Source: a virus. Taken from it: a stretch of DNA of 37,567 bases. The notes under the pieces were generated by a model, which saw only the letters and a program-made list of their open reading frames with translations, was not told the DNA's origin and made no database searches. Positions 110-4,587 of this stretch are shown here, in pieces. The stretch lies in IMG/VR virus record IMGVR_UViG_3300009502_000114, positions 1 through 37,567 of that record; one strand, 5' to 3'. The position numbers and the translations under genes are program-made. Positions within the stretch are counted from its first letter, which is position 1. Each line of letters starts with the position of its first letter.

Positions 110-232
110 CTAATTATCAAATTCTTTTTTTAATCTCTCCGCAGTCCATATAACCAGACTCATGACAAACGACAACACTGTTATAAAAATACACACCCCA
201 ATTATTTTCAATATAAGAAATAAAGTAGCCAT
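110..232 (-). CDS. Small single-pass membrane protein, 40 aa
   Basis: This short gene begins in a TAATG overlap with the large terminase stop codon, after the ribosome binding site GTGAGGA. It encodes MATLFLILKIIGVCIF, continuing as a hydrophobic helix to about residue 28 and ending in a charged tail, ERLKKEFDN. A single transmembrane segment with a basic C-terminus is all that can be read. Its stop codon overlaps the ATTAG flank of the palindrome. The function is unknown. Coupling to terminase argues that it is translated. Confidence 0.6.
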   Translation of the reverse strand: MATLFLILKIIGVCIFITVLSFVMSLVIWTAERLKKEFDN

Positions 233-2448
233 TAGTCCTCACCTATCACCGCTGCCCAATCATACCCACTCTTGATTTTATCGTCCCATGCATATCGTAA
301 ACTATCAATACAATTTGCAACCAACACGCCGTTAGCAAAATACTCATGTTGATCTTCAACCATTATATTATATACGTGCTGTGCATTTCCTTGAACATAC
401 TTTTTGTTTTTTATATTTGTTAATTGTAAATGGTTCACCACATGTAATACACTTTCTGATTTCATTATCAATTCCTGATGCTCTTCTAAAAGCTGATTTG
501 CATTTATTTGAACAGAACCTAACTGTGCCATAGGGTAATGTTGAAAAGGCACTATCACAGTGCTCGCAAATAAAATCTTTTGGTAACAGATTTGCAGCAA
601 CTGCTTTCCCGTGTTCTTTATGCCATTGTAAACCTGCTTCACTGCTATGCCACTCTGATGCAAGATGTCTGATGTTATCAAGGTTTGCTTTTGTTTCCTC
701 TTTATGTGAGGTGTGGTAATCTTTGGCATGATCTGACATATGTGCCGTACCAATTTTAAGTTCCAGATTATCCAATTCATTATTAAGTGGATTACCATCT
801 TTATGGTGTATGCACATGCCTTTTGGGACATCCCCATAATTGTCTTCCCAGAGTGCAACGTGTAATGCTTTTGTACTGTATTCTCCTTTTTCATAAATAG
901 AGCATTTGTAATAAACCCTGTCATTCCTTCTTTTGCTCTCTGGGTATCTGCGATAAGGCATCCCATTGTAAATGATCTTTTCATGTTTTGTGCTTGTAAG
1001 ATTTTCCATTTATTCTCTTCCCCTGTTAAAAAATAAAGTGTATCATGTTTACCAATATCGTCAATATGTTTTTTACCTGTTGCTGTTATTACATTATGAG
1101 ATGTTGTTGCTGTTACTGTTCTACCGTTTGCAAACCAATAATCTTTTACTTCTTGCACACCATTATCAAAAGTCTTAACCACTGGTTTGTATCCAGCACG
1201 TGTCAGAATCATATCGCCCACTTTAATATTCTGAATTGGTATTTCACCTTTATCAGTAGCAACCATTGTACCAGCAATAAAGCAATGATTCCATTTATCT
1301 AAGACTATCGGCAACACCTCATTAGTCTTCGGGTCTTTCTTATATGAGTAATGCTTAAACTCTTCCAGTGTGTGCTTGCATCTTGTATGAACATAAATCA
1401 TTTCAAACTTACGCAGGAACTCTATACCTTCCTTAACTGATCCCTTCGCTGGTTTAATGCTTGTGCCCACCACTTTCATTTTACCTGCTTTGTTAGCGGG
1501 GCGTAATGCGAACCCCTGCTTGCGTACATGGTTGATGGTATCTGGTCTTGCACAATCAGCCTTGATAATATAATTTCTGGAATCAGGCACTGTGTCAAAC
1601 AACTCACCAATATCATCCAGCTCAACTCCAACACCATATGCTTCATAATCAACATACAAATTATTATCAGCTATAAATGATCTTACCAGCGTTGTCGGGT
1701 CATTACTAAATCCCCAGTCAGCCCCATACATAAACTGCATCCCTGTTGGTGTTTCAAATTCACACTCTTCAAACTTGCCCCTGAATATACAAGCGTCACT
1801 AATGTGTAATGTGTTGCCTTCCCAAATATGTTCATATGCATCAGGATCAACTTGTTTACAATAGACACGTTCTTTCTCCAGTGTATTTGGAAAGCGGGGA
1901 TTATCCTGCCAGCCAACTTTTATACTTACACAATCAGGCGGGGGATTTAATACAAACCTTTTATAAGTAGGATCATCCGCTTCCCCTGTATTCCATGATA
2001 ACCATATTTCACTGTTCTCTTTACGTATCGTAGGTATTAATACTTGCCAGCTTTCTTCACTCGTACTCTGTGCTTCTTCTACCCAGCAGATATCAATATC
2101 TTCTAATGATTTTATTTCCTGTATGTTTCTATTAAGCCCCTTGAATATAAACTCACTGCCGATGGAGCTGGTAATAGATTGCTTCTTTACGTCAAATACT
2201 TTTGATAATCCTAATCGATCTATTTGTGTGCTCAATAGTTTATGCACTGATTCCGCAATCGATGCTTGAAATTCACGTGTGCATAATACACGCACTTTTC
2301 TTGTCGATGCAATTACTAACAGTGCCTGTGCAAATGCCCAACTCTTAGCCCCACCTCGTCCACCATAATAAGACTTGTAACGATGTGGTCTGAACAGCGG
2401 TTGAAACGCCTCAATAATATCTATGTTGGCTTCTAACTTCTCAGGCAT
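232..2448 (-). CDS. terL: Terminase large subunit interrupted by an intein
   Basis: This is the packaging motor ATPase and nuclease that translocates phage DNA into the prohead and cuts it. The N-terminal ATPase shows a Walker A-like GGRGGAKS at residues 29-36 and a Walker B WVEEAQ at 122-127. The RNase H-fold nuclease shows D244 (GADWGF) and D298 (KADCARPD). The final motif, DKWNH...CIDSLRYA, is split by a 324-residue intein (residues 389-712), so the third catalytic Asp (D715) lies three residues past the splice site. Removing the intein leaves a 414-aa protein, normal for the family. The gene abuts the small terminase. An HNH gene is nested in another frame inside the intein. Confidence 0.95.
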   Translation of the reverse strand: MPEKLEANIDIIEAFQPLFRPHRYKSYYGGRGGAKSWAFAQALLVIASTRKVRVLCTREFQASIAESVHKLLSTQIDRLGLSKVFDVKKQSITSSIGSEFIFKGLNRNIQEIKSLEDIDICWVEEAQSTSEESWQVLIPTIRKENSEIWLSWNTGEADDPTYKRFVLNPPPDCVSIKVGWQDNPRFPNTLEKERVYCKQVDPDAYEHIWEGNTLHISDACIFRGKFEECEFETPTGMQFMYGADWGFSNDPTTLVRSFIADNNLYVDYEAYGVGVELDDIGELFDTVPDSRNYIIKADCARPDTINHVRKQGFALRPANKAGKMKVVGTSIKPAKGSVKEGIEFLRKFEMIYVHTRCKHTLEEFKHYSYKKDPKTNEVLPIVLDKWNHCFIAGTMVATDKGEIPIQNIKVGDMILTRAGYKPVVKTFDNGVQEVKDYWFANGRTVTATTSHNVITATGKKHIDDIGKHDTLYFLTGEENKWKILQAQNMKRSFTMGCLIADTQRAKEGMTGFITNALFMKKENTVQKHYTLHSGKTIMGMSQKACAYTIKMVIHLIMNWIIWNLKLVRHICQIMPKITTPHIKRKQKQTLITSDILHQSGIAVKQVYNGIKNTGKQLLQICYQKILFASTVIVPFQHYPMAQLGSVQINANQLLEEHQELIMKSESVLHVVNHLQLTNIKNKKYVQGNAQHVYNIMVEDQHEYFANGVLVANCIDSLRYAWDDKIKSGYDWAAVIGED
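313..1284 (-). other. Intein in the terminase nuclease motif
   Basis: The 324-residue insert starts at C389 and ends at N712, with C713 as the +1 nucleophile. Block A reads CFIAGTMVATDKGEIP, block B contains TATTSH, block F reads VYNIMVEDQHEYF and block G reads NGVLVAN followed by C. The penultimate residue is Ala rather than the usual His, which can slow splicing but occurs in active inteins. The exteins rejoin as KWNH-CIDSLRYA, a classic terminase motif. Residues about 489-690 show no homing-endonuclease domain in this frame, because that DNA encodes an HNH protein in a different frame. Confidence 0.92.
368..1009 (-). CDS. HNH homing endonuclease nested out of frame within the intein
   Basis: This 213-aa protein has an HNH core, MCIHHKDGNPLNN...DNLEL (residues 65-84). 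It also has two C-terminal treble-clef-like zinc motifs: CEHC...CSNKC (148-170) and CITC...CSRKC (187-209). Phage and intron-associated HNH endonucleases often carry such zinc ribbons. It is read in a different frame from terL and has its own ATG at 1009, preceded by AGGGGAAGAGAATA as a ribosome binding site. Both frames stay open for the full 642 bases. It probably cleaves intein-less terL alleles to spread the intein. The fact that it is not fused to the intein is unusual. Confidence 0.9.
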   Translation of the reverse strand: MENLTSTKHEKIIYNGMPYRRYPESKRRNDRVYYKCSIYEKGEYSTKALHVALWEDNYGDVPKGMCIHHKDGNPLNNELDNLELKIGTAHMSDHAKDYHTSHKEETKANLDNIRHLASEWHSSEAGLQWHKEHGKAVAANLLPKDFICEHCDSAFSTLPYGTVRFCSNKCKSAFRRASGIDNEIRKCITCGEPFTINKYKKQKVCSRKCTARI

Positions 2449-3045
2449 TTATTCCTGTTCCTTTTTCTTACCAATAAAGTTTACAGTCAGCACTGGAACA
2501 ATAGGATTAAAGTCTTTACCATCTGCACCTGTGATCTCTGTTTTAACCTTATCACCAAATCTACTGGGAAATAAATATTTAGCATTCCATTGTTTTGTCT
2601 TTATCCGTAATGCACTTCTGCCCAGCACATCGTAATCAATCATTCGTGTTCGCTTACCCGTCTTCTCATCTATCTTTATGTATGTATCATTCCGTCCATC
2701 ATTTGCTATATCATCACACATGTCAGCGATCACTTCCGCTTGTGCTTCTCTGGCTAGTGTATAGAGTTCCAAAAACTCCTGATTGAATCTCACGTCCTTT
2801 GGTTGCTTCCACGCCATAACCGTTGATATGTGGGGCATTCCCTCATCATCACCACAAATGCGTGTTAATGTTCTGCCCTTAGTTAACTCCTTACATATGT
2901 GTCTGGCAACAGCATCATTATACTTATCTGGTCTACCTGTTTTATTCTTACCATTAGGCTTTTTTGCAAAGGTATGTGTTAATCCTTTTTGTATTGCACT
3001 TTGATTAACGCCTGTTTTTTTCTTTTCCCTTAACTTGATGCCCAT
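2449..3045 (-). CDS. terS: Terminase small subunit
   Basis: The 198-aa protein has the usual small-terminase layout. A basic N-terminus leads to GRPDKYNDAVARHICKEL (residues 38-55). A helix-turn-helix region follows around residues 56-80 (LTRICGDDEGMPHISTVMAW), then a helical segment rich in A and E (LYTLAREAQAEVIADMCDDIA). The family recognises the packaging site and oligomerises to deliver DNA to the large subunit. The stop codon is directly adjacent to the terL ATG, the standard gene order. Family membership is recognised from sequence pattern and position only. Confidence 0.9.
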   Translation of the reverse strand: MGIKLREKKKTGVNQSAIQKGLTHTFAKKPNGKNKTGRPDKYNDAVARHICKELTKGRTLTRICGDDEGMPHISTVMAWKQPKDVRFNQEFLELYTLAREAQAEVIADMCDDIANDGRNDTYIKIDEKTGKRTRMIDYDVLGRSALRIKTKQWNAKYLFPSRFGDKVKTEITGADGKDFNPIVPVLTVNFIGKKKEQE

Positions 3046-4511: not shown

Positions 4512-4587
4512 TGGAGCTGGTGATGGGACTTGAACCCGCAACCTGCTGATTACAAATCAGCTGCTCTGCCAATTGAGCTACACCAGC
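4512..4587 (-). tRNA. tRNA-Thr (anticodon TGT)
   Basis: The 73-base cloverleaf starts GCTGGTG (pairing with CACCAGC) and has a D arm AGCTCAATTGGCAGAGC. The anticodon stem is CTGAT/ATCAG with loop TTTGTAA, hence anticodon TGT, and the T arm is GCGGGTTCAAGTCCC. The 3' CCA is encoded after a T discriminator base (4512-4514). It would read ACA codons, which are frequent in this AT-rich genome. It sits between two small genes, as phage tRNAs often do. It may also compensate for cleavage of the host tRNA. Confidence 0.96.

Follow-up and report, generated by a model that had tools for sequence, protein, structure and literature searches.

In a 37,567-nucleotide stretch of viral DNA (positions 1 to 37,567 of IMG/VR record IMGVR_UViG_3300009502_000114, hereafter the window), the terminase large subunit gene terL contains an intein, and within the intein a complete HNH endonuclease gene lies in a different reading frame. 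We interpret the element at positions 313-1284 as a mobile intein whose splicing and endonuclease functions are carried on separate, overlapping genes, and put the probability of this interpretation at about 0.85. An earlier reading made from the letters of this DNA alone (the sequence-only reading) had described the arrangement as distinctive; the layout is real, but it is not singular, and belongs to a widespread class with about 90 TerL loci in viruses, prophages and plasmids in which the HNH gene lies wholly inside the TerL frame. The central claim of that reading, that the endonuclease is uncoupled from the intein protein and that a 'shadow' peptide occupies its place in the precursor, is supported by this recurrence, by the unequal identities of the two frames, by the enrichment of Shine-Dalgarno sequences before the HNH start, and by AlphaFold predictions.

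In the mechanism that we favor, terL would be read through into a precursor protein. The first ~92 residues of its intein would fold together with the last ~24 as a Hint domain, which would excise the intein, including a shadow peptide of ~208 residues, and join the 414-residue TerL. Other ribosomes would initiate on the same mRNA at an internal ATG (1007-1009) and produce a free HNH/zinc-ribbon homing endonuclease. If a phage or prophage in the same cell has a terL gene with no intein, the enzyme would cut that gene close to the point of insertion, and repair templated by the copy that has the intein would then spread the intein, the endonuclease gene and some flanking sequence. Splicing of the window intein, internal initiation and DNA cutting are all steps that we infer from sequence.

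The terL intein and the HNH gene inside it

The limits first proposed for terL, the intein (C389-N712), the HNH gene and the spliced product of 414 amino acids (aa) all hold (Table 1). The insertion point, DKWNH|CIDSLRYA, falls in what we take to be the third acidic motif of the nuclease domain. The predicted junction is supported by an intein-free TerL (locus L097, 52% identical to the window TerL), which reads across the same site without an intein, as DRHNH-CIDAIRYA (DRHNHCIDAIRYA).

Cys1 of the intein, which is Cys389 of TerL, is a class 1 nucleophile at position 1 and is a cysteine in 78 of 79 relatives; the class 1 block B motif T-x-x-H is present, with T60 and H63 unchanged in 38 inteins; and the terminal asparagine is followed by a cysteine at +1, where the relatives have a terminal asparagine and then cysteine, serine or threonine. 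Modeled as read in the TerL frame, the intein receives from AlphaFold2 a predicted local distance difference test score (pLDDT) of ~95 at residues 1-90 and 301-324 and of ~50 between them, and the best structural match of the confident part is the gp41-1 intein (1e-6), with other intein structures also matching. Both ends are thus predicted to form the Hint fold together, with the splicing domain complete without the shadow segment, which has the look of mere filler from which stops are excluded. The TerL open reading frame (ORF) of the window is in one piece, and no fractured or split-intein form is seen there.

The HNH ORF begins at the end of the N-terminal splicing blocks and its final codons overlap the C-terminal splicing block, the TerL frame being the HNH frame +1 (HNH is -1 relative to TerL). 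It scores 8e-13 against HNH_3 in Pfam and 4e-37 against HNH families in PHROG, and the zinc-ribbon cysteines are present. Across the family H68, H69, N77, N81 and H90, together with C148, C151, C166 and C170, are invariant or nearly so, and the window protein is intact, with an AlphaFold2 pLDDT of 94.9. Its best match both in sequence (3e-4) and in fold, where the match is weak, is I-HmuI (PDB 1u3e). Neither in the window nor in any nested relative is the endonuclease encoded in frame with the intein.

Table 1. Features of the terL locus in the window, and the two inteins of relatives nested in the other frame
Feature	Position	Strand	Remarks
terL ORF	232..2448	-	N-extein, intein and C-extein, 738 aa unbroken; Terminase_3 4e-35, Terminase_3C 9e-12 (Pfam)
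N-extein	1285..2448	-	388 aa; holds the ATPase domain and the larger part of the nuclease domain
Intein	313..1284	-	324 aa, C389-N712 = Cys1 to Asn324; Hint_2 and Intein_splicing (Pfam)
N-terminal Hint/splicing blocks	1009..1284	-	Intein residues 1-92; conservation, pLDDT, gp41-1 intein match
Shadow segment, TerL frame	385..1008	-	Intein residues 93-300, ~208 residues; no fold of its own predicted
C-terminal splicing block	313..384	-	VYNIMVEDQHEYFANGVLVAN|C; TIGR01443, conservation, pLDDT; ~24 residues
C-extein	232..312	-	Begins CIDSLRYAWDDK, runs to stop
HNH endonuclease ORF	368..1009	-	213 aa; HNH_3 motif and two treble-clef-like zinc ribbons
TAA stop, HNH frame	1010..1012	-	Immediately before the HNH ATG; speaks against upstream frameshift entry
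Candidate ribosome-binding site	1015..1024	-	Purine-rich AGGGGAAGAG, 5 nucleotides before the ATG
terS, small terminase subunit	2449..3045	-	Sf6_terminase 5e-25; directly upstream of terL
TerL inteins nested in +2	L067:3956-4432 and L084:3599-4063		Related pair

Maintenance of both frames and likely translation of the HNH gene

The view that two frames would hardly stay open together by chance is borne out by stop counts, obtained by holding the HNH protein and its codon usage fixed through 500 synonymous shuffles and counting stops in the TerL frame. The window has none, with 4.3 expected (P=0.002). For 68 nested HNH genes the shuffles predict 2.0 stops per gene in the +1 frame, where these genes have none, whereas the control, 23 non-nested relatives from the same HNH family, shows 7.0 stops observed and 6.7 expected. 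Shared ancestry of these genes means that their individual probabilities cannot be treated as independent. The difference from the non-nested control is nevertheless clear, and indicates that selection keeps the shadow frame open. About 18-20 stops are expected in the +2 frame of this family, a load that may account for the presence of nearly all nested cases in +1. The two loci with +2 nesting, L067 and L084, have no stops where 11-13 are expected; they form one clade on the HNH tree, and their nesting probably had a separate origin.

Identity is higher in the HNH frame than in the shadow frame in every one of 3570 pairs (means of 36% versus 19%), and in the closest pair the HNH proteins are 66% identical and the third codon positions 44%, which is near-saturated. 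The codon-position statistics that had been suggested as a check thus indicate that the HNH frame alone is conserved as protein.

The candidate HNH start is an ATG in 79 of 86 nested loci. Shine-Dalgarno matches of at least four bases accompany the first in-frame ATG in 46 of 79 cases, whereas only 10 of the 87 ATGs that this zone holds in the two remaining frames have one (P=1e-10), and an in-frame stop lies upstream of the start at a median distance of 4 codons. Slippery heptamers occur in 10 of 86 loci, with 6.9 expected. Because ATG and Shine-Dalgarno sequences are enriched, an in-frame stop is close upstream and the heptamers are not clearly enriched, we infer that internal initiation is preferred over frameshifting. 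Programmed -1 frameshifting would have ribosomes in the TerL frame slip and make a fusion of the N-terminal intein part (IntN) to HNH, leaving the endonuclease joined to the intein; the -1 position of HNH relative to TerL is the correct direction for such slippage, and a T TTT TTA heptamer is present upstream of HNH in the window, but an HNH-frame TAA sits between that heptamer and the ATG. Tested across the nested set by stop positions and heptamer counts, frameshift entry into the HNH frame is unsupported, and we consider it improbable.

Occurrence, related forms and signs of mobility

IMG/VR, GTDB genomes, and phage and plasmid collections were scanned, with a nesting script asking whether a long ORF in another frame encloses the HNH gene. 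A scan with the single HNH protein gave one relative, and an 11-sequence alignment was required for the wider scan; a 41-sequence alignment (A3) was too diverse as a search query. The HNH-family scan took the 80 best viral matches, and the counts cover this HNH family only and are lower bounds. The alignment scans of IMG/VR and GTDB gave at least 89 nested loci, of which one pair seems to represent a single piece of DNA; 87 loci are in +1 and 2 in +2. No in-frame HNH-intein fusions were among the matches listed. The out-of-frame layout proposed as something to look for in other genes was thus found many times over. A few nested loci are without a detected N or C block, which a cut contig explains in some cases. 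When phage records were searched by tblastn with the window intein in its TerL frame, Tetrasphaera phage TJE1, Acinetobacter phage Highwayman and a contig of a fecal phage matched over the full length.

The TerL proteins hosting nested genes belong to both the Terminase_3 and Terminase_6 groups and come from phages of bacteria and from a Halobacterium plasmid, and most inserts lie no more than a few residues from the third acidic motif of the nuclease domain. Isolates with a nested HNH gene include Rhizobium lusitanum P1-7 (L130), the Halobacterium GSL-19 plasmid (L173) and the Streptomyces S1D4-14 plasmid (L174). The last of these, pS1D4-14.2 (L174:1897-4264), carries its nested-HNH intein at another TerL site, in the ATPase half, and its public annotation records an HNH gene and a truncated terminase only. 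Three host ORFs (L043, L042 and L053) are TerLs of 1100-1240 aa with apparently two inteins, one with a nested HNH gene, and LAGLIDADG matches occur in two scanned host ORFs.

Other relatives of the HNH gene are differently placed. About 12 are fractured, lying between a TerL-IntN ORF and an ORF for the C-terminal intein part and the rest of TerL (for example in Lactobacillus phage CL2, L010), and further ones are free-standing beside terL or terS. In Brochothrix phage BL3 (L006:709-2607) TerL is annotated as gp2 and gp3, which resemble the two halves of a split intein and have between them what is left of a shortened HNH gene, in a different frame. Since nested, fractured and free forms are intermixed on the HNH tree, the sequences indicate that switches among them have occurred; the tree does not polarize nested versus fractured, and direct descent of fractured from nested forms is not established because its deep branches are open and the C-blocks differ (HNFAVNGG in fractured inteins, HEYFANG in nested ones). 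Nested inteins would offer a concrete route to split inteins, in that a stop arising in the weakly selected shadow frame would leave two trans-splicing host halves around an endonuclease gene with its own start, much as in the TerL genes of BL3 and the about 12 other loci. We tentatively suggest, with somewhat less than even confidence, that mobile inteins have a third stable architecture besides in-frame fusions and fractured genes, namely out-of-frame nesting, and that this form is a step toward split inteins.

Evidence for mobility comes from Highwayman (L003), which differs from Acinetobacter phage Acba_21 (L157) by a 981-bp insert of intein plus HNH gene. The empty site in Acba_21 is precise, and the insert is missing from more than 10 other Acinetobacter phage records with ~98% identity. 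The two phages are identical over 394 nucleotides upstream of terL, the first 1052 nucleotides of the extein and 1200 nucleotides downstream, and the substitutions by the insert number 8 within 163 nucleotides on its left and 7 within 12 nucleotides on its right. The rest of terL has none, and apart from the insert and these clusters the two phages do not differ over more than 2.5 kb. The comparison of these sequences points to a recent, precise acquisition, and the patch of substitutions resembles a co-conversion tract, as double-strand-break repair during homing would predict, although it may instead derive from local recombination with another phage in which no endonuclease was involved.

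Several observations weigh against the mobile-intein interpretation of the window element. The homing signature comes from a relative whose insertion site is 3 residues off that of the window; for the window, no closely related sequences that differ in the presence of the insert were found. A presence/absence pair was also sought in genomes of the family of Rhizobium lusitanum, where the TerLs were all of intein-free length and, being 41-55% identical, too distant for a tract analysis. The penultimate intein residue is alanine instead of the usual histidine (among relatives, histidine in 50 of 79 and serine in 22 of 79), and splicing in the window may be slow as a result. Finally, although the ATG and the purine stretch proposed by the sequence-only reading are in place and a stop lies directly upstream of that ATG, the proposed ribosome-binding site has at most 3 consecutive canonical Shine-Dalgarno bases; such a site is plausible, not strong, and weak by exact match.

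The HNH protein could also be a packaging partner of TerL, as the HNH protein of HK97 is reported to be, whose gene has settled in terL, and not a homing endonuclease; HNH relatives do adjoin terL or terS, and HNH proteins act with terminases (discussed in PMC10448857). This seems quite unlikely given that near-identical Acinetobacter phages are without HNH at this place, so that packaging there does not need it, that the nearest structure is the homing enzyme I-HmuI, and that the HNH gene moves together with the intein. Metagenomic contigs do carry single-base errors, and the overlap might conceal an in-frame fusion behind a sequencing or assembly error, or the HNH gene might be dead, but about 90 records, including the isolates Highwayman, TJE1, Rhizobium lusitanum P1-7, Halobacterium GSL-19 and Streptomyces S1D4-14, would each require two compensating errors, and the conservation of the catalytic H/N/H residues and zinc cysteines together with the intact window protein makes a relic or artefact very improbable. 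The least credible alternative is a group I RNA intron with an HNH ORF and a TerL frame open by chance: such introns usually hold out-of-frame endonuclease ORFs, but the window has no Rfam intron match, and on either side of the HNH ORF stand Hint blocks, in frame with TerL, whose catalytic residues are conserved, with a shadow frame between them that is kept open.

Comparison with known systems

Fractured genes, reportedly described by Dassa and colleagues in 2009, have a split intein with a free-standing endonuclease gene between its halves. They share with the mobile intein proposed here the presence of splicing and endonuclease functions as separate genes at the same intein position, but the window intein is, as predicted from its sequence, one unbroken cis-splicing chain, and its endonuclease gene overlaps it completely. 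One example of a fractured gene with a split intein and an intervening endonuclease is AceL NrdHF (PMC7891396). Mycobacteriophage TerL inteins with endonuclease activity have been reported (PMC5050341), and such canonical mobile inteins resemble the window element in the Hint domain, the position of the endonuclease, insertion into a conserved TerL motif and homing, which for the window element is proposed; they differ in that the window endonuclease is outside the intein polypeptide and its site is the nuclease motif, not the ATPase domain. I-HmuI, a homing endonuclease of a phage group I intron, has the same HNH catalytic module but an RNA intron as carrier and other DNA-binding parts.

A study of Mycobacterium phage ShiLan has described phage methylase genes that conceal an out-of-frame HNH gene, and its authors found no splicing domain (PMC11855218). 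These ShiLan-type HNH genes (PMC11855218, PMC9957025) likewise sit within a host ORF that stays open in a different frame and have a mobile distribution, and in our recomputation ShiLan and the window have the same frame relation (host = HNH +1), with weakly related HNH proteins (1e-12). No C-block of the intein family was found in ShiLan, and the methylase would retain the insert, whereas the HNH gene of the window lies inside a Hint intein that would be able to remove it, so that the window is not of the ShiLan type. Upstream of its hidden HNH gene, the ShiLan methylase (gp65, L159:4746-7665) further contains a sequence that resembles an intein N-block, beginning CLTADTEVLTDSGWK.

No report of an unbroken cis-intein with an out-of-frame endonuclease was found in the literature searched, which comprised papers available without subscription. 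Inteins are described as in-frame elements in which the endonuclease, if there is one, is a domain of the same chain; the TerL family described here, found in phages, prophages and an archaeal plasmid, splits both functions, which would free the endonuclease from the splicing protein and from the level of the essential TerL. It is also a natural instance of double coding that supplies its own control, in the form of relatives of a single HNH gene that are nested, fractured or free-standing, and explains TerL and 'unknown' protein families in databases that are partly shadow peptide. Two PHROG families, phrog_35162 ('unknown function') and phrog_30251 (a TerL family), align to the shadow and C-terminal splicing part of these inteins and thus seem to derive in part from translated shadow sequence. 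A tRNA-Thr (TGT) gene lies upstream of the terminase genes of the window, at 4512-4587 on the minus strand.
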